A DNA stretch of 64,000 bases from Thelephora terrestris (Eukaryota > Basidiomycota > Agaricomycetes > Thelephorales > Thelephoraceae), in NCBI GenBank assembly GCA_015956445.1, contig WIUZ02000008.1, positions 806,001-870,000 of the forward strand, read 5' to 3'. The stretch's first letter is position 1. The number at the start of each line of letters is the position of its first letter. Shown in pieces: positions 11,845 to 52,858 of this stretch. The translations under genes and the position numbers were made by a program. Below the pieces are notes generated by a model. The model saw only the letters and a program-made list of their open reading frames with translations. It was not told the DNA's origin and made no database searches.

Positions 11845-12287
11845 TGTCAGGGCCACTCTACCCCAACAACTACCAGTGCACTGAGCCGACTCCGCAGAGT
11901 ACTCACTAGTCCAACTAGCTTGTGAGAGAACGATCACGTCTCTATTCTTCCGGTAGGTTGTCCGAGGTCACTACAAGTCGATCGAAATCCCAAAGAGAAA
12001 CCCAACCTAAACCGTACTTCGTTCGGTTTAACCAATAAGGGTTTATCTCTACCGCGGGTTTGATGACTCCACCAGGTGTACGACTGGACGTCGAGGTGTT
12101 CTAATGTGAACGCTGGGGTTCTATAGTTACGATGCGCAGTTATAGCGCAGAGCGGGAGGGAGAGCAGATAAATGTCTTGGGCTTCCAACAAGAAACTCTG
12201 ACTTGACCTTAACTGCAACTGGGCTGAGAAGGGCAGAGGATTTCCTGAGGTAACAAAACTAAAGAACTACTCTACTACCAGACCGAC

Positions 12288-12295
12288 TATTTATA
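12288..12295 (-). promoter_or_regulatory. LTR-type TATA box of copy 1
   Basis: Minus-strand TATAAATA, preceded upstream by GGCCACTC. The same GGCCACTC-then-TATA arrangement occurs at equivalent places in copy 2 (37193-37200) and copy 3 (49820-49826). It faces the terminus at 11845, about 450 bp away. Confidence 0.55.
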
Positions 12296-13147
12296 CTACT
12301 ATGAGTGGCCTGACAGCGTGAGAAGTAATCTACCCTTAAACAGTAAGGTGAAACAGAGATAAGGAGTGTGGGAACGCTAAGTAAGGGGAGCGAACAAAGA
12401 GTGACGCGTGGGAGAATAAAGGACCAAGGGCCTTACTAGCGTGTGAAGGATTGCATAAAAGATAACGAATGTCTGCATGAAACATAGGGGTAAAGATAAC
12501 ACTAGTCCTAAAAGAAATAGGGGCATAGGGGTCATTAAAGTTCGTACCTGGGGATCACACCCAAGGGCTAGGTGAGAATCTTCTTGGATGCTTCCTTTGG
12601 AGAGGCCAAAGATAGAGACCATACAGCATCCCTTGTTGTCTGTAGGCGGTAACAGCATCACGGACTAGTGGCAACCTCAACGTAGGTCCGAACATGAGGA
12701 GCGCAGGCCTAGACTCATGGGACATGAGGGATTACAGATTCGCCGGCGTTTCACGCTAACGGCTACTTCCACATTCGCTTGGCTAACCAAAAGGAGTCTG
12801 AAGGCACTCTTTCCGAATAACGGCGATTCCTTCCTCCGGTTAGGAGACTGTGATGTGACTGTCCACGTGTGTGATCAGGGTCCAGGGTTGATCGTAATCA
12901 TAAAGTCATGAGGGGTCGTAAAAGGGGTTCGTGATGTCATAAAGGGGTCATCAGGGTCTTGAGACCTATTTTTAGTGCGCGCGCGTTCTAGGCGTTCCGG
13001 AACAAAGTTCTTCCAAGGCCGTCCCGCGGGCCGAGGCGTCAGCTTGATGTAGTAAGCCAACAATGATGGTACAGTGGCGGAAGTTGATGTGACCCGGACC
13101 AATGAGGTTCGTCGAGGTAGGTCACGTGAAGGATCACCGATCTAGGC

Positions 13148-13153
13148 TATAAG
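13148..13153 (+). promoter_or_regulatory. TATA box of the antisense gene in copy 1
   Basis: GGCTATAAGAAGG lies about 70 bp before the ATG at 13220. The same sequence is conserved before the ATG in copy 3 (50677-50682). Confidence 0.5.
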
Positions 13154-14644
13154 AAGGACGTCTTCTTGGAGCCATCCTTGATCAGCAACACCAGCAACTT
13201 CCCCATCATCTTACCAAACATGTCCTTCCCCAACAACCATACCTACAAGGTCGCCAATGGTATCTCCACCATCTCCCGTGTCGACCGCTGTGCCGCCAAC
13301 CGCAAGACCTACGCCAATGAGGCAGGGGTTCCCTATACCACCGATGAACAGGTGGGGGGGAGTTTGAAATAATTTGACATTTATCTCTAACTCTCTTCCA
13401 ATAGATCTTGGAGGTCGTCAAGCAGGTGGATGCCGAACGTCTCAGGGAGACGATCCCACACTTGATGGGGTTGACCTGGGATGACGAGCTCTGGGTCCGG
13501 TCCATGATCGCCGAGAAGGTGATCTTCCAGATGCGGGGTAGGTTCGGAGAACTGGAGCATCCAATCAAAAAGGAGCTCTGGTACACCCTGCAGAGGGGGA
13601 TCTACGATCAGGACCTGTTGGAGCACGGGGCAACTGTTCCTCGGGCCGTCCGCCACGCCACCGCTTCCACCACACTGTTGTGGTCGCTCGTTCGAGAGGG
13701 GGAGAGCTGGGTAGGTTCTCCGTTTGAATATTCGAGTATGACTCTCGACTAATCAAACTGCCTAGGTTGAACGTTTGGAGCGCGAGGTGAAGGAGGCGAA
13801 GGCCGACGTGCTTCGTCTGTCGGCGGAGGGTCTCATGATGAAGGAGATCACGGCCGAGTTTCAGCAGAAGACGAACGAGGCGTTGGAGGCGATGGTTGCC
13901 AACCATCAGGAGCTAGTGGTCGGGTTGAAGGTTCGGGACAACAACATTAGGGGTGCGTTGGATGCAAGGGACGATCGCCTGGATAGGCACTCGAAGAAGA
14001 TAGGAGAGGAGGGCAGCAAGGTAATGCCGCTTTCATCATTTTCTGTGTGAATGATGGAAGCTGACATTTCCTAGATCGAGGAACTCGAGGACTTGGTGTC
14101 GGTGTTGACGGCGCGGGTCGAGTCCTTACAGGACAAGACCTGTAACTGCAAGGAGGGTCCTGTGTTGGTCGGTCAGGGGACTGCTGACGTTCCGTTCGAG
14201 TTGGAGTACGCCGACGAGGTGGTACTCCCATCGCCTAACCCGTCGTCCTATGCGACGCCTCCGATCGAGAACGTGGTTCCCGTTCCAACTCCGGCTCCGG
14301 CTTCTACTATGGCCGAGTCCGACAAGGAGAACTGTGGGCGCTGCCAGCTGCAGCCGATCGGTCAGTTGGTGAAGATCGAGGACATGGCCGTGGATCGGAC
14401 CGAAGATGCTCCGAGGGCTGCCGAGGTAAGTCCGGTGACTACGGGTCAGCGTTGTAAACGCTCTAGACGCCATGCTGGTCATCGTATGGCACCCTCGTCT
14501 TACCCTTATCCCCGTCCAGTTGAATCGGATGGTGACCAGTCTGGTGGAACTGACCGACGACCATTCCGATACCGCGTCAATCGTCCATACCAGCTGTGGT
14601 AGTTACATTACTGAGTAAAGTGTGATAACTGGTCAGATTTCACC

Positions 14645-14670
14645 CTCAAAGTTATCATGATAACTTTGAG
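14645..14670. repeat. 26-bp perfect subterminal palindrome of element A
   Basis: CTCAAAGTTATCA followed directly by its reverse complement TGATAACTTTGAG. The same palindrome is found at 17929-17954, 34019-34044 and 40700-40725, always about 50-80 bp inside an A/B terminus. This is a likely protein-binding or cleavage site. Confidence 0.85.
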
Positions 14671-14932
14671 TACTGCTCAACCCATACTCACCCACTGTTT
14701 TGGGTTGATGGGAGAGGTCCCAATTAGGCAGGTGCCGAGGGTGTGGATTGCCTGGGAGTCTGGGTGGGTTTCCTTTTTGGGAATATCCCAGAAAGGAAAT
14801 ATTGATGGCTTATGTAAGCAATGATGGGAAACAGAATAGATGGAATGTCTATAAAAGGAAATACCATAAGAGGAAATTTGATGGATTACATAATGGGATC
14901 ATGTGACTTCCTAAAAAGGAAATTTGACCTGG

Positions 14933-15065
14933 TATGTTATTTTTATCAAATATGTTATTTTTACCAAATATGTTATTTTTACCAAATATGTTATTTTTAC
15001 CAAATATGTTATTTTACCAAATATGTTATTTTTACCAAATATGCTATTTTTACCAAATATTCTAT
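14933..15065. repeat. 18-bp tandem array, left arm of A
   Basis: About seven copies of TATGTTATTTTTACCAAA with small length variants, mirrored at about 17540-17655. The repeating peptides seen in several frames come from the array and are not genes. Confidence 0.9.
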
Positions 15066-15269
15066 TTTTTACCAGATTTGTTATTTTTCTAACTACAGCA
15101 ATTTCTAAGTATGAGAACTTCTAAATAGCATAATTTTCAAGGATAGTCACCTTTCAATAAGTTGATTTTCCAACATTACAATTGGAAGGTCTTCATTTCA
15201 ATGAGATTTATGTAAACTTTTCTTTGCCTTTTCTACCATATGATAGAATATGGTTCTGTTTGTAGTCAT

Positions 15270-16010
15270 GACCTAACCTAACCTAAACCGACCCTAACTC
15301 AACTTGATTTTGTTTTATCTTATCTCACCTAACCCCTAATCTAATCTAATCTACAAGTGTTTCATCTAATCTACCCAAAATAGTCCACCTGACCTAACCT
15401 AACCTACAGTAAATCCAACCCACTGTAAATGTAATCTACCATAAACATAATCTACGGTAAACATAGTCTACAGTAAACGTAGTCTACGGCAAACGTAGTC
15501 TACAGCAAACGTAGTCTACGGTAAACTTAATCTACTGTAAACGTACTCTACCGTAAATGTACTCTACCGTAAACGTACTCTACCGTAAACATAATCTACC
15601 GTAAACATAATCTACCTTAAACTTAACCTAAACCTAACCTAACCTAAACCTAACCTAACCTAAACCTAACCTAACCTAAACCTAACCTAACCTAAACCTA
15701 ACCTAACCTAACCTAACCTAAACCTAACCTAACCTAACCTACCGTCAACGTAAACCTAACCTGACCTAACCTACCCTAAACCTAACCTACTCTACACCTA
15801 ACCTACCCTAAACCTAACCTGTCCCAAACATAAACCTAACCTACCCTAAACCCCACCCTACAGTAGTCCACCTAACCTTACCTGACCCTGTTCTAAAGTA
15901 GCCTTACCCAACCCAATATGGTCTACTGGACCTAACCTAACTAAATCTATCTGGCCCTGACCTGACCTAACCTGATCTAACCCAGCCTAGCATAACCTAA
16001 CCTAATCTGC
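15270..16010. repeat. Telomere-like and related short tandem repeats, left arm of A
   Basis: A stretch of GTAAACATAATCTACGG-type 17-mers is followed by CCTAA and CCTAAA repeats (TTAGG/TTTAGG on the other strand). The mirror copy lies at about 16605-17350. Confidence 0.9.
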
Positions 16011-18569
16011 AAAAATGTGAACCTAGCTCAACCTATCCTCACCCAGCCCATTAGTATGTAACTTGGTTTATGGGAACACAGGATGAACCACACACTTCCA
16101 AACTACAAGCTGACAATTGCTCAAGTGCATCTACTTTGCTGGACCTACAAGCCAGTGGACCTATAAGCCTATATGCCCACAAACCCATGGGGACCTATAC
16201 TCAGTACATGTGACAAGCCATATTCTGTTCCAGACTGCAACCTGACTGCAACCCAAACTTGTCCACCTAGCTGGACCTATTAGCCAGTTGGTGTATTATG
16301 GGCCTACAGATCTGTAAGGGTTTGAGTTGATGAGTCCATTAGCCTGCAGGGTGAAAGGGCTTGGGTTGCAGCCAGGTTGCAGTCTGGAACAGAATATGGC
16401 TTGTCACATGTACTGAGTATAGGTCCCCATGGGTTTGTGGGCATATAGGCTTATAGGTCCACTGGCTTGTAGGTCCAGCAAAGTAGATGCACCTGAGCAA
16501 TTGTCAGCTTGTAGTTGGGAAGTGTGTGGTTCATCCTGTGTTCCCATAAACCAAGTTACATACTAATGGGCTGGGTGAGGATAGGTTGAGCTAGGTTCAC
16601 ATTTTTGCAGATTAGGTTAGGTTATGCTAGGCTGGGTTAGATCAGGTTAGGTCAGGTCAGGGCCAGATAGATTTAGTTAGGTTAGGTCCAGTAGACCATA
16701 TTGGGTTGGGTAAGGCTACTTTAGAACAGGGTCAGGTAAGGTTAGGTGGACTACTGTAGGGTGGGGTTTAGGGTAGGTTAGGTTTATGTTTGGGACAGGT
16801 TAGGTTTAGGGTAGGTTAGGTGTAGAGTAGGTTAGGTTTAGGGTAGGTTAGGTCAGGTTAGGTTTACGTTGACGGTAGGTTAGGTTAGGTTAGGTTTAGG
16901 TTAGGTTAGGTTAGGTTAGGTTTAGGTTAGGTTAGGTTTAGGTTAGGTTAGGTTTAGGTTAGGTTAGGTTTAGGTTAGGTTAGGTTTAGGTTAAGTTTAA
17001 GGTAGATTATGTTTACGGTAGATTATGTTTACGGTAGAGTACGTTTACGGTAGAGTACATTTACGGTAGAGTACGTTTACAGTAGATTAAGTTTACCGTA
17101 GACTACGTTTGCTGTAGACTACGTTTGCCGTAGACTACGTTTACTGTAGACTATGTTTACCGTAGATTATGTTTATGGTAGATTACATTTACAGTGGGTT
17201 GGATTTACTGTAGGTTAGGTTAGGTCAGGTGGACTATTTTGGGTAGATTAGATGAAACACTTGTAGATTAGATTAGATTAGGGGTTAGGTGAGATAAGAT
17301 AAAACAAAATCAAGTTGAGTTAGGGTCGGTTTAGGTTAGGTTAGGTCATGACTACAAACAGAACCATATTCTATCATATGGTAGAAAAGGCAAAGAAAAG
17401 TTTACATAAATCTCATTGAAATGAAGACCTTCCAATTGTAATGTTGGAAAATCAACTTATTGAAAGGTCACTATCCTTGAAAATTATGCTATTTAGAAGT
17501 TCTCATACTTAGAAATTGCTGTAGTTAGAAAAATAACAAATCTGGTAAAAAATAGAATATTTGGTAAAAATAGCATATTTGGTAAAAATAACATATTTGG
17601 TAAAAATAACATATTTGGTAAAAATAACATATTTGGTAAAAATAACATATTTGATAAAATAACATACCAGGTCAAATTTCCTTTTTAGGAAGTCACATGA
17701 TCCCATTATGTAATCCATCAAATTTCCTCTTATGGTATTTCCTTTTATAGACATTCCATCTATTCTGTTTCCCATCATTGCTTACATAAGCCATCAATAT
17801 TTCCTTTCTGGGATATTCCCAAAAAGGAAACCCACCCAGACTCCCAGGCAATCCACACCCTCGGCACCTGCCTAATTGGGACCTCTCCCATCAACCCAAA
17901 ACAGTGGGTGAGTATGGGTTGAGCAGTACTCAAAGTTATCATGATAACTTTGAGAGTGAAATCTGACCAGTTATCACACTTTACTCAGTAAAAGTTAACT
18001 ACCACTAGTGTCCATACCGACATGTCGCTTCCGAGGTCCAGCGACGGCACCTCACCAGACTCGCGGTTCAGGATTCCGCCCAGGGGTCCGATGAGGGAGA
18101 CGGAGGGTCGCTCGCCGACTACGTCGACAGCGTTGCCGAACAGTCACCCGGTGATGGAGATGTGGGATCAGGTGTTCCGCAGTTCGGTGACATCTGGGAG
18201 GCTGATCGGTCCGCTCGAAGGCATCTCTTCTTATCGGCTTGAACTAGTCGTTCAGCTGAGTGCCGAAGATGGTGACGCCATGTTCGGGGAGATCCTTGCT
18301 GGGAGGGGAGGTTGGTTGAACCGAGATGGACAGCTCGAGCATTGGGTGCCCGTTGAAGATACGATTGACTTCTGATAGCTGTGGACTTGATAGCACCGTA
18401 TATAGCTTGTTGTGGATTCGCTGGGAATAGTACGCGCGTGTGTGTGTTTCGAATGATGGGTGTGAAGGATAAGGAGTGTGAAGCATTCAAAACATAAGAA
18501 GTGGTAAGAAGAGTTCGAAGAAAGAGCGTGTTATAAAAAGTTTAAAAATACCATGTTCCTGACACCCGG

Positions 18570-23060: not shown

Positions 23061-23130
23061 CCTGACCTGACCTGACCTAACCTAACCTAACCTAACCTAA
23101 CCTAACCTAACCTAACCTAACCTAACCTAT
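23061..23130. repeat. (CCTAA)n telomere-like array in D
   Basis: About a dozen consecutive CCTAA units (TTAGG on the other strand), with CCTAAAC/CCTATAC variants on either side. Mirrored at about 23875-23935. Confidence 0.9.
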
Positions 23131-25600: not shown

Positions 25601-26063
25601 GGTGTGATGATTTCGCCGTTTACCCCCTTTCATTTCCTTTATTTAACGCTTCATCACCACTAAGTCAGTTAGTGCCCTGCCCTAAACATGGCGGTAAACT
25701 GTTTATTATGCCATATGCCCTATGCCTAACGATTCAAAGTCCAATACGTGGAACGTGCTACTAGTCAAAATACCCCAGAAGACCCGAGGTATAATACGTG
25801 AACATGTACCGGCGAACCTTCATACGAAGATTCCCCCTACCTGGCCCTCCGTTGCCCCTGGACGACTAGTAGATATTCAGGCTACCGACAACAAGGGATG
25901 TATTAATAAGTGTCGCGCGTTGACCTCTCGCAGAAGTCAACCGGCTTATTAATCTGACCCTTGGATTGGACTTACGAAAACCATTATGTTTTACGACTCA
26001 TGGATCATATGCAATAAACAAGAAAGAAGATCAATTCCGGACGCCACAATACAAAAGAGTTAT

Positions 26064-27322
26064 CTAATCAATATCTCTGCGGATCCTTTGTATTGCCTCC
26101 AAGGCCGTCCTCACCAACTCCTCGTTCGCCCAGTTCTGCTCTCGAATCTCATTCGGGTCCACGTCTGACAGGTCCGCGTAATCTGGAAGTTCGCTATCAG
26201 AGTTTGGTTCCGAGTCAGGAACAAACTCGGCATACGGATCGAACTCCAGAGCCGGCCACCGGTTCCTCGGCAAAGTCGTATCCGTAACCGTGATCAGAGG
26301 AGTCATCCTCCTACGAGGAATGGGAGTGTCTCTACAAACAACTCCAACATTCCTGTAGAACTCCTCCTCCTGGATCTCAACGACTTCATCATCAATGGGA
26401 ACCAACCTGTTCTCATACTGGACCACGAGACGAGCAGGCGGAGACTCGGCCCGCTCCGGAACCTCCAACTCTCCCTCCTCAACTTGAACCTCCGGTTCGT
26501 TACACTTCCTCTGAAGATCCCGGACTTCTCCGGTCAACTCGGAGACACGACGAGTAAGGCGAACCTAAAAACGAATAGGGTTAGAAGATATCAAAAACCT
26601 TCAACCCCTACCCGTTACCTTATCGTCCTCCAATTCTCCGGTCTTCGTAACAAGACTCCGGACCAAGTCCTTCAACGTGATCACCTCTCCCTAGAAAGAA
26701 AGTTTGAGTTAGAAAGGTCAATTACTCCGGACCCAAACTTTCTTACGTTCAGCCTATTGATCGCCATACCATGTTGCTCCTGCTCATCTTCAATCTTCAA
26801 GATGCCCTCATGGCATCCAAGGAACTCCTTCTCCAACTTCTCGATCTCTTCTCGACGACCATCAACTCGCTCATTAACATGAGCAACCTCATCCATCAAC
26901 ATGGACCCAACGTTACCCGTATGGATAACGCTGGCCTCCAACACAGAGTTGAAGGTCTCATTGGTCTCAGTGACGAACTCGACACCCCTATTGAGGAGTT
27001 CGGTCGCATAAGGGTTCGTCTCAATACGCGCCAACTTGCGCCGAGACACCCTACGAGAAGCTTGGATGAAATCCCTGAAACCTAAAAGGAGTTAGCTTGG
27101 TTTCCTAAATCGGAATGCGCAAGCAGGGCCCCCACCTAAATCAGAGAACCCCTCATTAGGGTCGGCGGTGGCGGTCCGGTCCATGATGGCTCCCAAAGTG
27201 GGATAAGGGCGGGACGGATCACGACGGGCATGAGAGAAGCGGTCAACGTTGTAATTGTTCTCCTGAACAGGAGAGATAGAGGAAGAGCGACGGGTGGGAA
27301 TACGAGTAGAAGCACGAGGCAT
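26064..27322 (-). CDS. LTR-borne coiled-coil/acidic protein, 364 aa (unit E)
   Basis: Exons are 27322-27136, 27081-26747, 26690-26619 and 26564-26064. They total 1095 nt and all junctions keep frame. The N-terminus is basic (MPRASTRIPTRRSSS). The middle is a long helical, coiled-coil-like segment (HVNERVDGRREEIEKLEKEF; LVRSLVTKTGELEDDK; LTRRVSELTGEVRDLQRK). The C-terminus is acidic with PNSDSELPDYADLSDVDP. A TATA box near 27384 lies about 60 bp upstream. The layout (short basic start, coiled coil, acidic proline-containing tail) resembles the proteins of copies 1-3, though sequence identity is low. The function is unknown. It has no protease, RT, integrase or transposase motif. Confidence 0.7.
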
Positions 27323-27753
27323 GTTGGCTATGTGTGTAACAAAGGGAGGTTTGTTGGAAGACCAGTCATCCAACCCCCTTTGGTTATATACCAAATGCCA
27401 CGCCCCTTTCACGACTCAGGAGTTGAGTCATCCTTTCTATTGTTTACTGCGCATGACCCACATGACATCATATGCCCCTATCTTTAGTCATATGCTCCCC
27501 TTTTGCCATTGGCTGTTAGTCAGCCATACCCACATTCCTTCCGAACATTCTCAGGATACGTCATGCTTTGTAACTGCTTTGTAATGCTCTCAAATTGCTA
27601 TTGGCCGCCACACTTTCGTTTATCAGCTGATAATTTGTAGCATTAGTCACCACGTAACGCACAGACCATGCAGTGCTGTGCACGGACCATGTTTGTCTGT
27701 GTTTGTATCCATAGTGTAGTTACATGTCACTGTCACGTCACAAATCTAAGTAG

Positions 27754-27761
27754 TATATATA
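27754..27761 (+). promoter_or_regulatory. LTR-type TATA box of unit E
   Basis: TATATATA within AGTAGTATATATACTCAG, 262 bp before the CA terminus of the unit and facing it. It is symmetrical, so it could serve either strand. Confidence 0.5.
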
Positions 27762-28226
27762 CTCAGAGTAGTCTAGCCTGTACTCCTTAGATTTGTTATC
27801 ATCAGACTCTCCGTGACCTCTATTGCTGTGTGCTTAGAGCAAGAGTGCCTGAAGACCCTTGTCTCCTTCTTTCTCCTCTTCTCCAATCTAGTCTGTGAAG
27901 AGACTTCCGATATCCCTGGGTTTGCAGCAGGGTTATAACTGTGTGTTTGATCCCTGAAGCGATAGGTTTGGATAACAAGAGTGTTATTGAACTGTAGAGG
28001 TCGCGTCGGCCTGACAATGGGCAACAGATACCATTGTACAACCCATGGGGCATGGGCAACGGATACTATTCCATTACCCATGGGTCATGGGTTGTACAAT
28101 GGTATCTTTTCTCCATGGGTCATGGGTTGTACAACGCGTTGTACAACGTTGCATGGCCCATGACCCATGGAGAATTGTCACGATGTATGGTCCATGACCC
28201 ATGGAGAAAAGATAGCTGAACCCTGT

Positions 28227-35880: not shown

Positions 35881-37192
35881 AAAAATGTGAACCTAGCTCA
35901 ACCTATCCTCACCCAGCCCATTAGTATGTAACTTGGTTTATGGGAACACAGGATGAACCACACACTTCCCAACTACAAGCTGACAATTGCTCAGGTGCAT
36001 CTACTTTGCTGGACCTACAAGCCAGTGGACCTATAAGCCTATATGCCCACAAACCCATGGGGACCTATACTCAGTACATGTGACAAGCCATATTCTGTTC
36101 CAGACTGCAACCTGGCTGCAACCCAAGCCCTTTCACCCTGCAGGCTAATGGACTCATCAACTCAAACCCTTACAGATCTGTAGGCCCATAATACACCAAC
36201 TGGCTAATAGGTCCAGCTAGGTGGACAAGTTTGGGTTGCAGTCAGGTTGCAGTCTGGAACAGAATATGGCTTGTCACATGTACTGAGTATAGGTCCCCAT
36301 GGGTTTGTGGGCATATAGGCTTATAGGTCCACTGGCTTGTAGGTCCAGCAAAGTAGATGCACTTGAGCAATTGTCAGCTTGTAGTTTGGAAGTGTGTGGT
36401 TCATCCTGTGTTCCCATAAACCAAGTTACATACTAATGGGCTGGGTGAGGATAGGTTGAGCTAGGTTCACATTTTTGCAGATTAGGTTAGGTTATGCTAG
36501 GCTGGGTTAGATCAGGTTAGGTCAGGTCAGGGCCAGATAGATTTAGTTAGGTTAGGTCCAGTAGACCATATTGGGTTGGGTAAGGCTACTTTAGAACAGG
36601 GTCAGGTAAGGTTAGGTGGACTACTGTAGGGTGGGGTTTAGGGTAGGTTAGGTTTAGGTTTGGGACAGGTTAGGTTTAGGGTAGGTTAGGTGTAGAGTAG
36701 GTTTGGGACAGGTTAGGTTTAGGGTAGGTGTCAGGGCCACTCTTCGCCCTTCAGGTACCAGTGCTGTTGGTGAGTCGCAACTCCAACCAACAAGAAACAA
36801 TGGGGCAAAGGGGGAACGACTTCCCTATATCCACCCAAAGTCTACGTGGTCCAAAACGCGATGGACGAGTGTTCTCCGGTAGGTTGTCCGAATTCACAGC
36901 AGGAGTGCCGAGCCTCTATCAGGTAAACCCCTATCGTCTTCTGAGGGCGGATACAAGAGCCCGAGGATGGCGCCTCAAACTGGTGCTTGATTAAGAGAGC
37001 GGCGAGGAACTCCTTTTCGTAAGCGCGTTCGCCGATTCTTAACGCAAGGCTGAGAGAGAGAGGAGAGCGAACGTGTTCAGAGAGTTACTCGATAAGCTCT
37101 TCAGTGGCCTACAGCAAATACACCGATGCTGCAAGGAGAAGAGGACTTCCCGAGATATCAAAGATAGGGAGTCCTCAGCTACTCTACTGGTA

Positions 37193-37200
37193 CCTATATA
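37193..37200 (-). promoter_or_regulatory. LTR-type TATA box of copy 2
   Basis: Minus-strand TATATAGG downstream of GGCCACTC, in the same arrangement as copies 1 and 3. Confidence 0.5.
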
Positions 37201-37648
37201 GGAGAGTGGCCGGGACATAGATAATCCCATCTAATAATAACTCGGAGCAGAGAAGGGCCGAGAGTAAACTAGAACAGTAAGCGGCCCGGGTCATAGAATA
37301 GAAATAATGAAGGAGTGGCTAAGGGGTCAGGGTTCGTGAGAGAATAAGAAAGGGGTCATGACGTCGTGTGGGAAAGGAATGACAAAGAACAATATCACAT
37401 GTGAGGACGAACCAATGAAAGAACGACGTGTCAGCTCATTCGATCGGGACAACAAAAGACCGAGTGGGGCTTGAATGTCGAGGGCGAATTGTATGGAGAG
37501 ACTGGACCGGTGAAACGATGGACCGATCCAATGGCGAATAGGACGCGAGCGCTGTCGAGGGTCGGATAAAGCGTAGCGCGAACCGGCCGTTGGATCCATC
37601 AAACTCCCTTCTTCCCACATCAACACTTCCACCAACCAACTACTCATT

Positions 37649-39399
37649 ATGCCTATGATCTCTGACCGTGTCTTCCGTGCTGAGAACAGCACTGCTACCA
37701 TCGAGTCCGCGGATCCTCGGTCCGTGCAGAACAAGAGCTACTTCTTGCCGAACGCCAATGTGGCGTACCCTAGTTATCGCGAGGTGCGACGTCACGTGTC
37801 GCTATTTGCTGGCAACAACTGACATCGCATTTGTAGATCTTCGCCGCGGCCGACAAGGTGGATGCTCGACAACTGGAGGCAACGATCGCTAAGCCCCCCA
37901 GCTACCTGACCATGGACGACGAGTTGTGGTATCACAACTTGATCGACCACAAGCTGCAAGAGTCGATGCGAGGGGTAACGTTCAACACCGAGCTGCGCAT
38001 GCCGTACGAGACTCCGGTGGCTTCGTCGTTGTGGGGGCTCCTGCGAATGGGGATCTACGATCTGGGGAACGGGGAAGGAAGATGGCCTGGAGCGACTCGC
38101 TCCCAACACTACACAGCAGCCGTTGGTCACCGCCTTTGGTTCCTTCTGAGGACGGAACAGAAAGCGGTGAGTCGGTCTGTGCATCCCGCTTGTGGGATAA
38201 CACTGACGGACTTATAGAATGAGCGACTGAAGCGTGAGGTGAAGGAAGCGAAGGACGATGCCCGTAGGATGTACTCGGAGGCATTGGACACGAAGAAGAC
38301 GCTTTTGCTGATGAACGACACGCTCCGAGTAACGTTCGAGAGCGAGATGCTGGCGCTGCGCGAAGAACACAATCGTTTGGTCGAGTCCTTGAAGGAACGG
38401 GACGACACCATCCAGCGGGACCTGGTCGAGGTCGACCGACGGCTCAACCGTCATAGAAGGGCTCTGAATGAGCTCGACACCAAGGTCGGTGCGACTTCTC
38501 CTGGTCTTTATCCAAGAAAGCCCACACCACTTCTAGGTTGATACGTTGGACGATGCCTTGCCGTTGCTGGGCGCTCGGGTCGAGTCCATGAGCGAGCGGT
38601 TGTGCCACTGCCGCACTCGTTCGGTGGCTGCGGTTCGCGACGAGTCCGAGGACGAGTCGATTCCGGATCGGATGGCTTCTCCCATAGGTGGGATGTCGGT
38701 TGACATATTTGACTTGTCCACTGACATCCTTTTTAGCTTCCGATGGATCGCATCGCACACCTGCGCATACCGATGGCGGGGAGGAGGTCGTTCGTGAGAC
38801 GTCCGAAGAGACGGCCGTGAACCCGGTTAGTAGTTCTCCCGAGTTGGAGTACGCGGGGGAGAACGAGGTAGCCGTTCCGGTTCCGCCTCCGTCGATCTCT
38901 CCGGTGCGTGGGCAGCGTTCCATCCGTGCTCGTCGATGGGTTCCTTATCGTGGGACACTCCGTCCAGCGCACCGCATGCGTCCCAGTAATCCAGACGCTA
39001 TCCGCCAGGGTGGAGACATTGAGTCCACCGTCCTATTCCGACGCGACGATGTTGCAGTGCCGCGTGGATCGCGGCGAGTTGATTCCGGTGGAGTCCGTCG
39101 ACGTGAACGGCTTAACCGACCTTACGCTCTTGTCGGTCCAGCGTGCAGCGGAGGCCGTTCGCCTGGTGGCTCAACTGACCGAGAGAGTGGAGGGCTGGTC
39201 AGTCCAGAGGACTCTGGATCAGACTACGGTCGATTCAGCGAGGAACCGCCTGCGCGCCGAGGTTCAGCTGGTCGCAGCTCATCGTCTGGAGGAAGCTCGG
39301 GTCGTCGAGATGGTCGACGAGGAAGTCGACGAGAATGCCTCGGAGGGGACGGAGGAGGAGATTGCCAGTGCTGAAGAGTACTGGCAGACCAGGTCTTGA
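37649..39399 (+). CDS. LTR-borne coiled-coil/acidic protein, 484 aa (copy 2)
   Basis: Exons are 37649-37783, 37837-38166, 38218-38484, 38537-38687, 38737-38903 and 38995-39399, totalling 1455 nt with frame kept throughout. The product starts MPMISDRVFRAENS. It shares with copies 1 and 3 the block KVDARQLEATI..LTMDDELWYHNLI, then a coiled coil (LKREVKEAKDDARRM; HNRLVESLKERDDTIQRDL), a CHC motif, an acidic/Pro-rich segment and a strongly acidic end (VEMVDEEVDENASEGTEEE). Introns are 50-91 bp. The last-exon acceptor is the least certain junction. No catalytic motif was recognised and the function is unknown. Confidence 0.72.
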
Positions 39400-40778
39400 T
39401 GGCTAGGGTTTGTACACCTTAGTCCTCGTCCATAGAGTCCGGGCGGATTTAACTCCGTCGGTTTGGTAGTCTCGTGTCTTCGCTGTGCGCGCGTGTGTAA
39501 TATCATCGGTGTCCTTGTCTGTGTTTCTTGATGACGTGTGAGTCGTGATAAGGGAGATGATAAGATAAGAAAGGGGGATAGGTAAGGAAAGTGGTCGAAA
39601 GTTGGGTGTAAAAGTGGTTCAAAAAGAAGTTAAAATTCAGCACGCTGACAGTAGGTTAGGTGTAGAGTAGGTTAGGTTTAGGGTAGGTTAGGTCAGGTTA
39701 GGTTTACGTTGACGGTAGGTTAGGTTAGGCTAGGTTTAGGTTAGGTTAGGTTTAGGTTAGGTTAGGTTTAGGTTAGGTTAGGTTTAGGTTAGGTTAGGTT
39801 TAGGTTAAGTTTAAGGTAGATTATGTTTAAGGTAGATTATGTTTACGGTAGAGTTTGTTTACGGTAGAGTACGTTTACGGTAGATTAAGTTTACCGTAGA
39901 CTACATTTACCGTAGACTACGTTTGCTGTAGACTATGTTTACCGTAGATTATGTTTACCGTAGATTATGTTTACCGTAGATTATGTTTACCGTAGATTAT
40001 GTTTACCACAGGTTATGTTTATGGTAGATTACATTTACAGTGGGTTGGATTTACTGTAGGTTAGGTTAGGTCAGGTGGACTATTTTGGGTAGATTAGATG
40101 AAACACTTGTAGATTAGATTAGATTAGGGGTTAGGTGAGATAAGATAAAACAAAATCAAGTTGAGTTAGGGTCGGTTTAGGTTAGGTTAGGTCATGACTA
40201 CAAACAGAACCATATTCTATCATATGGTAGAAAAGGCAAAGAAAAGTTTACATAAATCTCATTGAAATGAAGACCTTCCAATTGTAATGTTGGAAAATCA
40301 ACTTATTGAAAGGTCACTATCCTTGAAAATTATGCTATTTAGAAGTTCTCACACTTAGAAATTGCTGTAGTTAGAAAAATAACAAATCTGGTAAAAAATA
40401 GAATATTTGGTAAAAATAACATACCAGGTCAAATTTCCTTTTTAGGAAGTCACATGATCCCATTATGTAATCCATCAAATTTCCTCTTATGGTATTTCCT
40501 TTTATAGTATTTCCTTTTATAGACATTCCATCTATTCTGTTTCCCATCATTGCTTACATAAGCCATCAATATTTCCTTTCTGGGATATTCCCAAAAAGGA
40601 AACCCACCCAGACTCCCAGGCAATCCACACCCTCGGCACCTGCCTAATTGGGACCTCTCCCATCAACCCAAAACATGGGTGAGTATGGGTTGAGCAGTAC
40701 TCAAAGTTATCATGATAACTTTGAGGGTGAAATCTGACCAGTTATCACACTTTACTCAGTAATGTAACTACCACAGCT

Positions 40779-44215: not shown

Positions 44216-47200
44216 GCAGTAGTCCTTATTAAAAACATTAATGTTTTAGGAGTTTTTGTCGCAAATTTGAATGGCCTGAGGGGGGATATTTTACTCATAA
44301 AGTTTTAATGGAAATTATGGGGGGGACTGGGACCCAGCTTACTGGGCACTGGTGCTCCCAATTAGGCAGGTGCCGACAGTGTGGGTGGCCCGGGGGAGTG
44401 GATTGCTTATATAATAAAAATTGAAAAATTCAGGGAAATTCCAGAAAATTCTGAAAAAATTCTGAAAATTATTAGAAAATTCCCACGGGTGTCAGGGAGG
44501 GCAGAAAATAAAAAATGGACTGTGGGAATTTCCGATCAAAATTTCCCAAAAAGGAAATTTTTGATGGCTTACATAAGCAACTCAAAAATGATTTTGATAT
44601 TGAATTTCCTTTTTGGGAAATTTTGATGGCTGATATAAGCAGGTCATGTGACTGAAAAAAGTGGGTGTTGCTTATGTAATCAGGTCATGTGACCGACCAA
44701 AAAAGGAAAGTTTTGATGGCTTACATAAGTGTCTCAAAAATGCTTTTGGAGGGGTCTTTCCTAAAAAGGAAATTCCTTTTTAGGAAATATTTGATGGATT
44801 ACCAAAAAAGGAAATTTTGATGGCTTACATAAGCGGCTCAAAAACGCTTTTTGCAAAAATTACCAAAAAGGGAAATTTCCCTTTTAGGAAAGAGCTTCCA
44901 AAAAAGGAAATTTTGATGGCTTACATAAGCAACTCAAAAATTATTTTGGCAAAAATTACCAAAAAAGGAAATTTCCTAAAAAGGAAATTATATGCTAGAA
45001 AATTCGGAAAAATGCCAGAAAAATCCTAAAAAATACTGAAAAAATTCCCACATGTCTAGAAAGTGCCCAAAATGGTAAATTATTCCCAGAAATATTCAAA
45101 AAATTGTTTTTCTGGCTGGAAAAATCAGGAAAAAATTCCAAAAAAATTCCAAAAATTCCAGAGTATAGATAAATATTTTATAAAAATTATTTCAATTTTT
45201 TTGGTCCATTGAATAGCCCATAATTTCAATATTAATATATTTTTTGCCCAAAAAATTCAGAAAAATCCCAAAAAATTGATAAAAATAGGGAAATACAAAT
45301 ATATCTGTAATATTCATTATATCATGAAGTACAGACCAGTTTGTGGTCATAAACTAGCCCTAAACCTAGTCCTGGACCTAACCTAACCTAACCTAGCCTA
45401 ACCCTAACCCTAACCCTAACCCTAACCCTAACCTAGACCTAAACCTACACCTAACCTAAACCTAAACCTAACCTAACCTAACCTAACCCTGACTTAACCT
45501 AACCTAACCTAACCTAAACCTAACCTAACCTAACCTAACCTAACCTAACCCCAAACCTAACCTGCCCTAAACCCAGCCTGCCCCAAACCTATCCTAGCAC
45601 CAAACCTAAACCTAAACCTAAACCTAAACCTAACCTGCCCTAAACCTAACTCTGACCTGGCCTAGTTCAGCCTTATCTTATCTTATCTTATCTTATCTAT
45701 CTTATTCTGTCTTACCTACCCTAGACCCAACCTAACCTGACATAGTCAACTTAACCTGGTCCACCACAGATCACCCAACCTAACCTAAAGTGGTCTACCT
45801 GACCTAGACTGATGCAACTTGAGTTTATTCTTCTAATCAGCTGTTATCTGATCTGGCCTTAATCTAAATACCGTAGCTAACCAACATCTAACCCAACCTC
45901 ACCTGGCTCACCAGCAAGTAGCTGGGCTACAGGAACACACCCTGAGCTGCACCATCCCATATCCTGTATCCAACTGTCACTCAAACACAAGAACTGTGGT
46001 GGACCTACAAGTTAGTGGACCCATAAGCCCACAGACCCACAAGTATAGGCTGTTCACTCAGTGGAAACATCTGTTATCCACCCTCACCCACGCACCACCC
46101 TCACTCTGTGTTCTGTGCCAGACTGCAACTTCACCACAGCTCATGTTCAGCCACCTAGCTAAACCCATGTACAATCAGGTCTACAAATCCATGGATCCAT
46201 AACCAGTAGTCTATCACCCTGACTTGCAGGTTCAGCCAGGTGGCTGAACATAAGCTGTGGTGAAGTTGCAGTCTGGCACAGAACACAGAGTGAGGGTGGT
46301 GCGTGGGTGAGGGTGGATAACAGATGTTTCCACTGAGTGAACAGCCTATACTTGTGGGTCTGTGGGCTTATGGGTCCACTAACTTGTAGGTCCACCACAG
46401 TTCTTGTGTTTGAGTGACAGTTGGATACAGGATATGGGATGGTGCAGCTCAGGGTGTGTTCCTGTAGCCCAGCTACTTGCTGGTGAGCCAGGTGAGGTTG
46501 GGTTAGATGTTGGTTAGCTACGGTATTTAGATTAAGGCCAGATAAGATAACAGCTGATTAGAAGAATAAACTCAAGTTGCATCAGTCTAGGTCAGGTAGA
46601 CCACTTTAGGTTAGGTTGGGTGATCTGTGGTGGACCAGGTTAAGTTGACTATGTCAGGTTAGGTTGGGTCTAGGGTAGGTAAGACAGAATAAGATAGATA
46701 AGATAAGATAAGATAAGATAAGGCTGAACTAGGCCAGGTCAGAGTTAGGTTTAGGGCAGGTTAGGTTTAGGTTTAGGTTTAGGTTTAGGTTTGGTGCTAG
46801 GATAGGTTTGGGGCAGGCTGGGTTTAGGGCAGGTTAGGTTTGGGGTTAGGTTAGGTTAGGTTAGGTTAGGTTAGGTTTAGGTTAGGTTAGGTTAGGTTAA
46901 GTCAGGGTTAGGTTAGGTTAGGTTAGGTTTAGGTTTAGGTTAGGTGTAGGTTTAGGTCTAGGTTAGGGTTAGGGTTAGGGTTAGGGTTAGGGTTAGGCTA
47001 GGTTAGGTTAGGTTAGGTCCAGGACTAGGTTTAGGGCTAGTTTATGACCACAAACTGGTCTGTACTTCATGATATAATGAATATTACAGATATATTTGTA
47101 TTTCCCTATTTTTATCAATTTTTTGGGATTTTTCTGAATTTTTTGGGCAAAAAATATATTAATATTGAAATTATGGGCTATTCAATGGACCAAAAAAATT

Positions 47201-47825
47201 GAAATAATTTTTATAAAATATTTATCTATACTCTGGAATTTTTGGAATTTTTTTGGAATTTTTTCCTGATTTTTCCAGCCAGAAAAACAATTTTTTGAAT
47301 ATTTCTGGGAATAATTTACCATTTTGGGCACTTTCTAGACATGTGGGAATTTTTTCAGTATTTTTTAGGATTTTTCTGGCATTTTTCCGAATTTTCTAGC
47401 ATATAATTTCCTTTTTAGGAAATTTCCTTTTTTGGTAATTTTTGCCAAAATAATTTTTGAGTTGCTTATGTAAGCCATCAAAATTTCCTTTTTGGGAAAT
47501 TTTGATCGGAAATTCCCACAGTCCATTTTTTATTTTCTGCCCTCCCTGACACCCGTGGGAATTTTCTAATAATTTTCAGAATTTTTTCGGAATTTTCTGG
47601 AATTTCCCTGAATTTTTCAATTTTTATTATATAAGCAATCCACTCCCCCGGGCCACCCACACTGTCGGCACCTGCCTAATTGGGAGCACCAGTGCCCAGT
47701 AAGCTGGGTCCCAGTCCCCCCCATAATTTCCATTAAAACTTTATGAGTAAAATATCCCCCCTCAGGCCATTCAAATTTGCGACAAAAACTCCTAAAACAT
47801 TAATGTTTTTAATAAGGACTACTGC
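44216..47825. mobile_element. Giant palindromic (foldback) element F
   Basis: The arms are inverted copies from GCAGTAGTCCTTATTAAAAAC at the left end to its exact reverse complement at 47825, around a centre near 46200. Each arm holds GGTGCCGACAGTGTGGG, AAAAAGGAAATTT and GATGGCTTACATAAGC motifs (shared with C and with A/B), then telomere-like arrays including true CCCTAA repeats. The central region resembles those of A/B and D (GGACCTACAAG..AGTGGACC, CCAGACTGCAAC). No target duplication was found: left flank CATACTAAG, right flank TCGTCCATC. No protein is encoded. Confidence 0.85.
45380..45660. repeat. Telomere-like arrays, left arm of F
   Basis: CCTAACC repeats, then about five consecutive CCCTAA units (about 45402-45433, TTAGGG on the other strand), then CCTAAA/CCTAA repeats. 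The mirror copy is at about 46740-47025. Confidence 0.9.
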
Positions 47826-47965
47826 TCGTCCATCGCGTTTTGGACCACGTAGACTTTGGGTGGATATAGGGAAGTCGTTCCCCCTTTGCCCCATTGTTTC
47901 TTGTTGGTTGGAGTTGCGACTCACCAACAGCACTGGTACCTGAAGGGCGAAGAGTGGCCCTGACA
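47826..47965 (+). mobile_element. LTR terminal remnant (copy 5), cut by palindrome F
   Basis: 140 bp identical or nearly so, in reverse complement, to the first 140 bp of copy 2, ending AGAGTGGCCCTGACA at 47965. The copy-2 sequence that should follow beyond 47826 is replaced by palindrome F, and nothing matching it is found left of F. Confidence 0.8.
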
Positions 47966-49819
47966 GGCATCGTTTATGGGTGGGGGGCAACAAGACGTTG
48001 GACTGGGCGGTGAGATCAAGCAGTAGTATTCCTTCAACAAGGTGTCAGGGCAGCAGGAGAGAATGAAGGGTAGCTGAACCTACCCTTCCAACAACGTGGC
48101 TACATCCATTTGGTCCTCGGTGCCCTGACCATCCTCTTCTTCTAACATCTCAGCATCCTTGTTGTTAGCAGGATCTTCCAACGACTCCGCTTCCTTGTCA
48201 TTAGCAGGCGGGGCCTTGAGGTTAATCTCTGGTGCGGCTTCTTCTTCGTTGTTCTCATCCTCTGGTGGGGCTTCCCCTTCAGACCGTGAGACGTCCCTCA
48301 ATCGAGCAGGTTTAGATGGAGGGCGGGCATCCTCTTCTTCTTCTTCAGCCCCCTCGTTTGTGAGCTATTGGACAGCAAAGCTATCAATAACTAGAATAGG
48401 AGCTAATGCAAGACTTACACCGCGCAGAATGACGCCCTCGAATTGGCTCCAACCCAGGATCCCCTCCGTTCCGAGAACCGCTCTCTCTTTGGCAAAAAAT
48501 GCATCAGGATCTGGTGAGATTTCGGCCGGGTCATCCAGAAGATAGTCTTGGTTGTCCAACGTCTGTTTGAAGAACTCCGAGCTCTCCAGCTTTTGCTTTC
48601 CTAACAAGATGGCAAGATGCCATCGCATCTCCCGGATGTAGACGAGGTTGCGCACGTAGAACCTCTTGTTATCCGGATGGAGCGGGTCGCTGCCTAGGTA
48701 GAACTCTGTCACATCGGAGATGGTCAACTTGCCTTTGTTGCCGTTGCCGTTGTCGTCTTCGTCGTCGCTATCCTGCATACCTATTCCTGCCTCGAGACTG
48801 GGCGCGTAAGCATCGGGGACACCCTGGAGCTGACGTTGGAGGATGGGGGTAAGGACTTTGGATCGCCAAGCGCTTGCAACAGTGCCCTGTGAAGCGAGCT
48901 CCTTGTGTGCTTCAAGCTCCTCACCAAATGCCTCCATAACACATCGCGCGTAGCTTCCGCGCCGCTGGGCTTCATGGGCTGCGTTCTTATTGCCATGCCT
49001 CACCTCGGCATAGAGTTGCTGAAAGAGCCAATAGTATGGAATTTGAATGTATCGCGATTTCCAGGCCACCTTCGTGCCTCGCTTTTTGGGGATCTTCCTC
49101 ATCGTGCCAAATTGGATCAACTCGGTTTGACCCTCCCTCCAGAGCCAGAGGTTAGGAGCCCACACCTTCCACTCGTACTTGTAGCTGAGGAGAGCTTGAG
49201 CAATAAAAACACAAGTAAAACGACCCTTGTACTCACAGAACAAAAATCGGTTCATATGGCTTCAGCTCTTCATCGCCCTCATCCTCTGTAACGTAGAGGT
49301 CTTCTTTGGGATCAGGATCATACTTGGCGAACGCATTCTCAGGTTTGGCTCTGTCGTTGTATGGAACACCCCTGTCAGGGCCACTCTACCCCAACAACTA
49401 CCAGTGCACTGAGCCGACTCCGCAGAGTACTCACTAGTCCAACTAGCTTGTGAGAGAACGATCACGTCTCTATTCTTCCGGTAGGTTGTCTGAGGTCACT
49501 ACAAGTCAGGTCGAAATCCTAAAGAGAAACCCAACCTAAACCGTACTTCGTTCGGTTTAACAAGCAAGGGTTTATCCCTACAACAGGATTGATGACTCCA
49601 CCAGGTGATTGACTGGACGCTCGAGGTGTTCTAATATGAACGCTGGGGTTCTATAGTTACGAGGCGCAGTTGACGCGCAGAGCGGGAGGGAGAGCAGATG
49701 GGGGATGTCTTGGATCAAACAAGAAACTCTGACTTGTCCTTAACTGCAACTGGGGTGAGAAGGGCAGAGGATTTCCTGAGGTAACAAAACTAAGGTACTA
49801 CGATACAGCCACAGATGCT

Positions 49820-49826
49820 ACTTATA
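49820..49826 (-). promoter_or_regulatory. LTR-type TATA box of copy 3
   Basis: Minus-strand TATAAGT preceded by GGCCACTCCTTTAG, at the same distance from the terminus as in copy 1. Confidence 0.5.
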
Positions 49827-50676
49827 CTAAAGGAGTGGCCATGACGTCAATACCCTAATATACCCTTATCAAGCCAGAACAAAGGGAGATAAGGAGTGTG
49901 AGAACGCTAAGTAAGGGAAGCGAACAAATGTGACGTGTGGGAGAATAAAGGACAAAGGGCCTTACTAGCGTGTGAAGGATTGCATAAAAGATAACGAATG
50001 TCCGCATGAAACATAGGGGTAAAGATAACACTAGTCCTAAAAGAAAGAGGGGCATGGGGTCATTAAAGTTCGTACCTGGGGATCACACCCAAGGGTCAGG
50101 TGAGAATCTTCTTGGATGCTTCCTTTGGAGAGGCCAAAGATAGAGACCATACAACATCCCTTGTTGTCTGTAGGCGGTAACAGCATCACGGACTAGTGGC
50201 AACCTCAACGTGCGTCCAAACATGAGGAGCACAGGCCTAGACTCATGGGACATGAGGGATTACAGGTTCACCGGCGTTTCACGCTTACGGCTACTTCCAC
50301 ATTCGCTTGGCTAGCCAAAAGGAGTCTAAGGCACTCCTTTCGAATAAAGGCGATTCCTTCCTCCGGTTAGGAGACTGTGATGTGACTGTCCACGTGTGTG
50401 ATCAGGGTCCAGGGTTGATCATAAGCGTAAAGTCATGAGGGGTCGTAAAAAGGGGGTTCGTAATGTCATAAAGGGGTCATCAGGGTCTTGAGACCTATTT
50501 TTAGTGCGCACGCGTTCTAGGCGTTCCGGAACGAAGTTCTTCCAAGGCCGTCCCGCGGGCCGAGGTGTCAGCTTGATGTAGTAAGCCAACGATGATGGTA
50601 CAGGGGCGGAAGTTGATGTGACCCGGACCAATGAGGTTCGTCGAGGTAGGTCACGTGAAGGATCACCGATCTAGGC

Positions 50677-50682
50677 TATAAG
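50677..50682 (+). promoter_or_regulatory. TATA box of the antisense gene in copy 3
   Basis: GGCTATAAGAAGG about 70 bp before the ATG at 50750, conserved with copy 1. Confidence 0.5.
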
Positions 50683-50749
50683 AAGGACGTCTTCTTGGAG
50701 CCATCCTTGATCAGCAACACCAGCAACTTCCCCATCATCTTACCAAAAC

Positions 50750-52488
50750 ATGTCTTTCCCCAACAACCATACTTACAAAGTCGCCAACGGTATTTCCACC
50801 ATCTCCCGTATCGACCGACGTGCCGCCGCTCGCAAGACCTATGCCTGTGCGGCAGGGACTCCTTATACCACTGATGATCAGGTATGGGGGAGACCTAGAG
50901 CTTCGTGTATTTGCACTAACGCCTTCCTCTAGGTAGAGGTCGTGCGTTCTTTGACGTTGATGTCAGGCTAACGGCTTCTAGATCTTGAAGGTCGTCACGG
51001 AGGTGGACGCCGAACGTCTCAGGGAGACGATCCCACACTTGATGGGGTTGACCTGGGACGATGAGCTCTGGGTCCGGTCCATGATCGCCGAGAAGGTGCT
51101 CTTCCGTATGCGGGGTAGGTTCGGAGAGTTGGAGCATCCGATCAAGAAGGAGCTCTGGTACACCCTGCAGTGGGGGATCTACGATCAGGACCTGTTGGAG
51201 CACGGGGCAACCGTTCCTCGGGCAGTCCGTCATGCCACCGCTTCCACCACGCTGTTGTGGTCGCTCGTTTGGGAGGGGGAGAGCAAGGTAGGTTCTCCGT
51301 TTGGATATTCAAGTATGACTCTCGACTAACCAAACTGCCTAGGTTGAACGATTAGAGCGCGAGGTGAAGGAGGCGAAGGCAGACGTCCTTCGTCTATCTG
51401 CGGAGGGTCTTCTGATGAAGGAGACTCTGGCCGCCTTCCAGCAAGGAACAAACGAGGCGTTGGAGGCGATGGTGGCTAACCATCAAGAGTTGGTCGCCGG
51501 GCTGAAGGTCAGGGACAACAACATTAAGGGAGCGTTGGCCAGGAGGGATGAAAAGGTTCTTTCAGCCTTTGCAGGTTTATGCAATGACTGAGAGACTTCC
51601 TTTAGACTGAACAGCTCGAAGACGTGGTGGCCGTGTTGACCGCGCAGGTCGCGTCCTTGCAGGATAAGACCTGCAACTGCAAGGAGGGTCCGAAGTTGGT
51701 TGGTCAGGGGACTGCCGATGTTCCGTTCGAGCTGGAGTACGCCGACGAGGTGGTACTCCCTTCGCCTAACCCATCGTCCTACGCGACTCCTCCGATCGAG
51801 AATGCGGTTCCCGTCCCGACTCCGGCTCCAGCTTCTACGTTGGCCGAGTCCGACAAGGAGAACTGTCGGCGTTGCCCGTTGCAGCCGATCAGTCAGCTGG
51901 TCAAGATCGAGGATGAGGTCATGGAGGTTGACCGGGCCGAAGATGTTCCGAGGGCCATTGAGGTACGTCCGGTGACAACAGGGCAGCGTTGCAAACGCTC
52001 TTGACGCCGTGTTGCTCATCGCATGGCTCCTTCGGCTAACCCATACCCGCGTCCAGTTGAGTCGGATGGTGACCAGTCTGGTCGAGATAGGGGACGAGAG
52101 TTCTGTTATCGGGTCAACCGTCCCTACCGACAGGTCGAGTCGGAGATCCAGCTTCACCACCAGCTTCGACTCGCAAGACAGGATTCCGCCCAGGGGTCCG
52201 ACGAGGGAGACGGAAGGTCGCTCGTCGACTACGTCGATAGTGCTGCCAAGCAGTCACCCGGTGATGGAGATGTGGGACCAAGTGTTCCAGAGTTCGGTGA
52301 CATCTGGGAGGCTGATCGGTCCGCTCGAAGGCATCTCTTCCTATCGGCTTGAACTAGTCGTTCAGCTGAGTGCCGAGGATGGTGACGCCATGTTCGGGGA
52401 GGTCCTTGCGAGGAGGGGCCAGCACTACGATCTCCGGGATGGAAGGTTGATGACCATGAGGCCTGCCGTAGATAGGGTCGACTTTTGA
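50750..52488 (+). CDS. LTR-borne coiled-coil/acidic protein, 479 aa (copy 3, intact)
   Basis: Exons are 50750-50881, 50982-51287, 51343-51555, 51606-51962 and 52057-52488, totalling 1440 nt. Every intron is phase 0 with GT/AG ends. Domains in order: N-terminal segment (MSFPNNHTYKVANG), a conserved globular block (EVDAERLRETIPHLMGLTWD; ELEHPIKKELWYTLQWGIYD), a coiled coil (VERLEREVKEAKADVLRLSA; MVANHQELVAGLKVRDNN), a CNCKEG motif, an acidic Pro-rich part (ADEVVLPSPNP), and a C-terminal block (MVTSLVEIGDES; VMEMWDQVFQSSVTSGR; LVVQLSAEDGDAMFGE). No known enzyme motif. Similarity to copy 1 is high through all exons, with changes mostly tolerated by the frame, suggesting selection on the protein. 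The role is unknown. Confidence 0.78.
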
Positions 52489-52832
52489 GGACGTTGTATA
52501 AGCATTAGTATAGCCATGTTGTTTCGTATTGCCGTGAATGTATGCGCGTTTGTGTGTTTTGAATGATTGGTGTGAAGGATAAGGATAGTGAAGCATTCAA
52601 ACACAAGAAATGGTAAGAAGCGTTCGAAGAAAGAGTGTGCTATAAAAAGTTTAAAAATACCATGTTCCTGACAACCCCGCTGAAACTGCCTGACAGGATT
52701 GACTGCGTCGAATATGATCGCCATCCGGTTGTCGTTGTGGATGCTCCATGCTTTCACCAAAGCAGGATCAACCAGTTCCAGGACAGGGCCAGTGACATCC
52801 TTGGGGTCAGTTGTCTCCCGGTAATCAGCGCT

Positions 52833-52858
52833 GGGGGGGGGGGGGGGGGGGGTGGGGG
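52833..52858. repeat. Poly-G tract in coding sequence of the interrupted host gene
   Basis: G20, then T, then G5 on the plus strand. On the coding strand it encodes a proline run in frame between SPT and SADY. A length change here would shift the frame. Confidence 0.9.

Follow-up and report, generated by a model that had tools for sequence, protein, structure and literature searches.

Long terminal repeats of Thelephora terrestris retrotransposons hold a spliced antisense gene with the marks of purifying selection

A 64000-nucleotide stretch of the Thelephora terrestris genome (the window; C59:806001-870000 of an assembly of 40.6 Mb in 60 contigs) contains four units, U1 to U4, which we assign to three families: A (U1 and U4), B (U3) and C (U2). 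Families A and B are long terminal repeats (LTRs) of Ty3/gypsy elements, with eight and three pol loci, respectively; U2 is a probable LTR, judged by its ends and layout. On the strand opposite to element sense, each unit holds a spliced gene, and the substitution patterns indicate that its protein is under purifying selection in all three families. What is new is that, by the same kind of evidence, the last intron of this gene in families A and B is evolving as coding sequence while its splice sites stay conserved. We consider it likely that the units are LTRs of long-LTR retrotransposons that carry an antisense gene for an accessory protein acting in trans, probably made in two forms in families A and B.

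As the first-pass annotation of the window described, all four units run from TG to CA between perfect, mutually different 5-bp repeats. U1 (11845..18564, element sense on the minus strand) is a single family-A LTR flanked by CCCGG, with an insertion inside its antisense gene; U2 (25603..28016, plus strand) lies between ATGGG repeats and is probably a single family-C LTR; U3 (36729..39650, minus strand) is a single family-B LTR flanked by GTAGG; and U4 (49373..52673, element sense on the minus strand), flanked by ACCCC, is a single copy of the LTR that occurs at family-A pol loci. We cut 38 loci out of the genome, namely the 8 best matches to U4 and the 30 best to U2, counting the two units in the window itself; all but L003 and L020 (36 of 38) are bounded by perfect 5-bp repeats, so the pattern of ends and flanks is beyond chance. 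The terminal inversions are short (7 bp in A, 6 bp in B and 3 bp in C) and A and B flank pol, neither of which fits a DNA transposon with terminal inverted repeats; transposases were not searched for in family C. Compared as DNA, families A and B have nothing longer in common than pieces of 35-39 bp, and the same comparison gave no piece shared by U2 with U1, U3 or U4. The units were also described as lacking pol, and the scored matches listed by our reverse transcriptase (RT) searches place no RT inside the window.

The earlier suggestion that the units are LTRs could be followed up by searching for paired copies on either side of coding sequence, with a primer site next to the inner LTR edge. 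Such pairs exist for families A and B and none was found for U2 among the places listed; the LTR reading therefore held for U1, U3 and U4, which have pol-flanking copies, and stays no more than probable for U2. A search with unit U3 returned two same-strand pairs of copies at a spacing of about 8.76 kb. The family-B locus L039 has two LTRs of 2931 bp each, with 2 differences between them and outer flanks ATGTC/ATGTC. Its interior has, on the strand opposite to the antisense gene, a gag frame (577 amino acids) that includes a zinc knuckle and a pol frame (1301 amino acids) that covers protease, RT, RNase H, integrase, a Tf2-1-like SH3 domain and a chromodomain; the rve match in family-B pol is under the curated cut-off, yet has E = 1.7e-05. 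A second B element has GTTTT on either side, and both LTR edges are present at a third B copy (on C5). An RT search of the genome gave 90 matches, of which three, at 99-100% identity, belong to family B and eight, at 71%, to family A; the remainder are at 44% or lower. Between two of the eight 71% loci on C23 lies a 3293-bp LTR, L040, that is 90.5% identical to U4 over 2221 bp and 93.0% over 816 bp. At the other family-A junction windows an LTR edge is present at six of seven five-prime and all seven three-prime junctions, and the window of the single five-prime miss, L051, landed within LTR-like sequence. Because LTR edges occur at the pol loci and paired LTRs surround gag-pol, A and B are LTRs and their units in the window are single ones. 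The domain order RT-RNase H-integrase with a C-terminal chromodomain is found in family B, and family A is placed by its RT identity of 71% to B; the Ty3/gypsy assignment uses domains and RT identity, and gag, the chromodomain and outer element repeats are documented in B only. At G000:C23:1035620-1046345, one LTR is common to two pol loci of family A that lie 9.31 kb from each other, giving an LTR-internal-LTR-internal arrangement.

Directly after the 5′ LTR stands GAGTAACAAAACTACC in family A and TTATATCAAAGATACC in family B (ATATATC in one B copy). These primer-binding sites (PBSs) can pair over 12 nt (A) and 11 nt (B) with a motif about 34 nt beyond the sense TATA box, at 49781..49792 in U4 and 37155..37165 in U3 (both minus strand). 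A complement of equal length anywhere in the LTR arose in 4 of 1000 shuffles for A and 6 of 1000 for B. A purine tract and a PBS are present beside the LTRs in both families. Self-priming from the complement of the RNA start is the arrangement of Tf1, and we infer that the predicted RNA 5′ end of A and B would act as a Tf1-like self-primer. A TATA box facing the near end, proposed earlier for every unit, is present in U4 (49818..49827, minus strand), U3 (37193..37201, minus strand) and U2 (27753..27762, plus strand), and none was found in U1 by the exact strings tried. At about the same spacing from its TATA box, U2 has a motif near-identical to the family-A RNA-start motif (27788..27799, plus strand).

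In the spliced reading the antisense genes of U4, U3 and U2 are intact, as first read, and that of U1 is broken by the insertion. The U4 gene (50750..52488, plus strand) has exons at 50750-50881, 50982-51287, 51343-51555, 51606-51962 and 52057-52488, which when spliced encode 479 amino acids. The U3 gene (37649..39399, plus strand; exons 37649-37783, 37837-38166, 38218-38484, 38537-38687, 38737-38903 and 38968-39399) encodes 493 amino acids when spliced and 506 with the last intron retained, ending at 39374. In U2, a gene on the minus strand (26064..27322; exons 27322-27136, 27081-26747, 26690-26619 and 26564-26064) encodes 364 amino acids, a model supported by NCBI BJ322DRAFT_1021270. Gene models for U4 and U3 were set by NCBI models of relatives (P0081 for U3) together with substitution periodicity; an alternative last intron for the A gene was tried and dropped. 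At 100 nt, the first intron of the U4 gene (50882-50981) is longer than that of U1 (53 nt), and its counterpart in L040 has 99 nt. It has an internal CTAG|GTAGAG doublet, and NCBI models P0001 and P0003 place residues there, so that two small introns may lie side by side at this position. Upstream of the U4 gene stands a TATA-like box (50676..50685, plus strand), and the surrounding 50573-50722 is among the best-conserved parts of the LTR.

Over 277 amino acids the A and B proteins share 34% identity (E = 1e-31), and they have the same layout: an N-terminal part, a coiled-coil-like part closing in CxC and a variable C-terminus. The B antisense protein has no similarity to B Gag. Every one of the 80, 6 and 71 rows returned by protein searches was from T. 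terrestris or was an unnamed environmental protein; two environmental relatives, at 64% and 68% identity, suggest that the antisense proteins have relatives in other species.

Selection was assessed on 10 aligned rows for family A (skipping the insertion in U1), 29 for family C (dropping L020) and 21 copies for family B. In A and C the most variable codon position tracks the exon frames, and the ratio of nonsynonymous to synonymous divergence (dN/dS), pooled over pairs, is 0.11 for exons 1-4 of A and 0.17 for C. One B exon has a dN/dS of 0.06; its two alternative frames give 2.7 and 3.8. The C gene is open in 27 of 29 rows (the others being L017 and L023), and is least constrained at codons 151-175 and 276-300, where dN/dS is 0.38 and 0.70. 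Divergence in C is 0.282 at third positions, 0.127 in introns and 0.035 in the non-coding LTR; the corresponding values in A are 0.199, 0.185 and 0.061. Because third-position divergence lies far above that of the non-coding LTR, old versions of the gene seem to sit within young, homogenised or constrained LTR frames. CpG decay was not supported as the source of the high third-position divergence, as CpG transitions make up 19% (C) and 29% (A) of the differences. Across pairs of C copies, divergence of the gene and of the non-coding LTR is weakly correlated (r = 0.36).

The last intron measures 94 nt in U4 (51963..52056, plus strand; GTACGT...CCAG, with a read-through stop at 52002-52004) and 64 nt in U3 (38904..38967, plus strand; GTGCGT...CCAG). 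Neither length is a multiple of three, so splicing shifts the reading frame. Read through, this intron has a dN/dS of 0.16 in A, where the two remaining frames give 1.5 and 2.1, and of 0.18 in B, where they give 2.0 and 1.9. The translation of the retained intron and the sequence downstream matches between A and B at 36% over 76 amino acids (E = 3e-4), in a single comparison of basic, low-complexity stretches. Over the 0.4 kb that follows the B intron, the retained frame has a dN/dS of 0.40 and 119 stop-bearing cells out of 28140, the spliced frame has 0.36 and 20 out of 27930, and the frame used by neither form has 1.01 and 1519 out of 27930. In A, the spliced tail past the retained stop has a dN/dS of 0.42 versus 0.91 and 1.02; all 10 rows keep the spliced form open, and 7 of them also keep the retained form open. 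Low divergence of the two-frame region of A was set aside as evidence in itself; because the non-coding LTR is equally low, only contrasts between frames were used. The retained tails have a net charge of +11 (A) and +12 (B) in their first 70 residues; over whole tails it is +3 (A) and +14 (B) when retained and -3 (A) and -13 (B) when spliced, and beyond residue 70 the two forms of A differ little in charge. From these comparisons, both C-terminal frames look constrained in B, and weakly so in A. The simplest reading would be two protein forms, with a basic or an acidic C-terminus, chosen by retaining or splicing the intron.

A different reading of the last intron is that it is never spliced, the spliced frame being an annotation artefact and the protein having one C-terminus. 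The coding constraint on the intron in A and B would agree with this, as would the annotated protein P0001, which retains it. We nevertheless regard it as unlikely: the splice sites are intact in 10/10 A rows and 21/21 B rows, NCBI models splice out the 94-nt intron in A (P0003, P0004 and P0018) and the 64-nt intron in B (P0081), and the spliced frame is the one that stays open throughout the A rows and constrained beyond the retained stop, with few stops and a low dN/dS in B. It is also conceivable that the whole gene was captured from the host and rides passively, with no benefit to the element. An outside origin would suit a B protein unlike Gag and the absence of known domains in A, B and C, and yet a passive rider should decay, whereas selection is strong in three families, and A and B retain 34% identity and the same last-intron arrangement. 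Moreover, the protein searches, within their limited sensitivity, found no host gene from other organisms. On this balance we hold a passive captured gene to be very improbable.

For family C, the question is whether U2 could be another kind of transposable unit that makes a 5-bp repeat and is not an LTR. A genome scan with a self-priming PBS pattern for C gave no matches; the PBS core by itself occurs at 214 places, and among those listed it is mostly the RNA-start motif of the C units themselves. A purine-tract pattern occurs at 7 places, with 2-3 mismatches and none in the neighbourhood of an RT on the list. In two cases C ends lie close together on the same strand, with no gag-pol between them. 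Because a gag-pol partner was not found among the places listed, we call U2 a probable LTR only. However, C units run from TG to CA with 5-bp repeats at 29 of 30 loci (L020 is truncated) and a terminal inversion of merely 3 bp, they have the TATA box and the family-A-like motif at equal spacing and the same antisense-gene layout, and a partner can lie beyond the places listed; a non-LTR identity for family C is thus quite improbable. Copy numbers raise a related question. LTR-end patterns (up to 2 mismatches) occur at 409 (A), 167 (B) and 222 (C) places, 798 together, whereas reversed-pattern controls gave 0, 0 and 1; these counts take in truncated and nested copies. The roughly 800 ends greatly outnumber the 11 pol loci of A and B (eight and three, with none assigned to C), as might be expected if many single copies arose by direct integration of LTR-only DNA from reverse transcription. 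The data here do not separate this origin from LTR-LTR recombination, although recombination between 3-kb repeats is an ordinary and expectedly frequent source of single LTRs with target repeats, and we consider direct integration highly improbable as the origin of many single copies.

In the account that we favour, of LTRs that carry an antisense accessory gene, sense RNA would start about 30 nt past the TATA box, and its 5′ end would pair with the PBS adjoining the LTR to prime reverse transcription, as the complementarity suggests. Integration would yield the 5-bp repeat, and recombination between LTRs would leave single ones. On the other strand, the U3 region of the LTR holds a complete, intron-containing gene, probably with its own promoter, which would explain why this region is so long; because the gene runs antisense, its introns would be kept in the genomic RNA and survive the RNA stage. 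The gene would encode a coiled-coil protein, probably in two forms in A and B with C-termini from overlapping frames. Such a protein is most likely an accessory factor that acts in trans, above all on element expression, and could be made from single LTRs. We favour an element-encoded regulator of expression as the most likely role because the gene lies beside the sense promoter, seemingly has two forms and persists in single LTRs; alternatively, the protein may act in the particle or in integration. More tentatively, and on the doubtful side, the LTR could carry a self-recognition gene, with subfamilies keeping old, divergent two-isoform regulators and single LTRs forming a dispersed store that restrains or licenses related full-length copies. 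The gap in C between gene and LTR divergence (0.28 versus 0.035, with r 0.36) is what one would expect from a shuffling of genes between LTR frames or from the maintenance of diverse genes.

Several points weigh against the accessory-gene account. The function it proposes is drawn from analogy. Family C has no gag-pol partner among the places listed, a profile comparison of the A/B and C proteins gave no match, and Pfam and PDB sequence searches with the A, B and C proteins returned only weak coiled-coil-type matches in place of known domains. The pooled dN/dS values carry no confidence limits and are uncorrected for shared ancestry and recombination, and the non-coding LTR is less diverged than synonymous sites. 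In A, the contrast across the two-frame region is weak (dN/dS 0.63 and 0.66, with 0.89 in the third frame), and stops break the retained frame in 3 of 10 rows (U4, L003 and L008).

Hundreds of copies in three families, clear selection and, in two of the families, a conserved choice of C-terminus make the role of these antisense genes testable. Single LTRs, usually seen as inert promoters, can bear a complete protein gene on which selection acted in the source lineages. Many 'hypothetical proteins' of this mushroom, in 141 clusters that bear the name Thelephora terrestris, are relatives of retrotransposon LTR genes. Antisense orientation is a suggested route by which an intron-rich gene could persist in a retrotransposon.

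Other repeats surround the units. The insertion in U1 is a 3.4-kb fold-back element (14592..18009, unstranded) that interrupts the antisense gene and is flanked by the 9-bp repeat GTCCATACC. Fold-back elements with long inverted arms and abundant AACCTAACCT-type repeats occupy 14592-18009 and 33968-40780; the latter is of the same family as the insertion in U1 and is itself split by unit U3. Truncated family-B LTR pieces lie at 8227-9148 and 47825-47965 (92% and 100% identity to parts of U3). A 35-bp tandem repeat forms two arrays in inverted orientation (21818-25603) that extend to the left end of U2, an inverted repeat at 44896-47498 has 1270-bp arms that are 100% complementary with 63 nt between them, and a run of about 20 G bases lies just outside U4, at about 52833-52853.

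Among known systems, family B shares with the Tf1/sushi chromoviruses gag, pol, protease, RT, RNase H, integrase, the Tf2-1-like SH3 domain and the chromodomain. With Tf1 the elements also share a PBS complementary to the RNA start, which is predicted in the elements described here. Tf1 LTRs are short. Unlike those of Tf1, the LTRs described here span about 2.9-3.3 kb and contain an antisense gene. A parallel in layout comes from a human retrovirus, human T-cell leukaemia virus type 1 (HTLV-1), in which antisense transcripts from the LTR reportedly give a coiled-coil regulator, HBZ, in a spliced and an unspliced form. The gene layout and the two constrained C-termini described here are consistent with an HBZ-like regulator, but the HBZ protein is unrelated to the Thelephora protein and we claim no homology. 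Most of the HBZ coding sequence lies outside the LTR.

A protein-coding antisense gene within an LTR has also been proposed for human immunodeficiency virus 1 (HIV-1) (PMC1654176); set against it, the Thelephora genes are multi-exon and selection on them was tested over many copies. In the fungal literature, covered as titles and abstract openings with subscription journals largely outside, we found no description of a complete spliced antisense gene within an LTR. The Ty3/gypsy element Boty of Botrytis cinerea has an additional antisense gene, brtn, for which the text consulted mentions neither introns nor a location within the LTR (PMC8365987); the Thelephora gene has both. The crapaud element of Podospora anserina is likewise fungal, with a chromodomain, many single LTRs and divergence mostly in the U3 region; its LTRs are 339-443 bp, and the available text mentions no LTR gene (PMC10787394). 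Plant Ty3/gypsy elements such as Grande, RIRE2, Retand and PvRetro13 have conserved extra antisense open reading frames of unknown function, some with their own promoter and nuclear location (PMC7264820). Because these frames lie between pol and the 3′ LTR, they are lost when a single LTR forms, whereas the Thelephora gene lies wholly inside the LTR.

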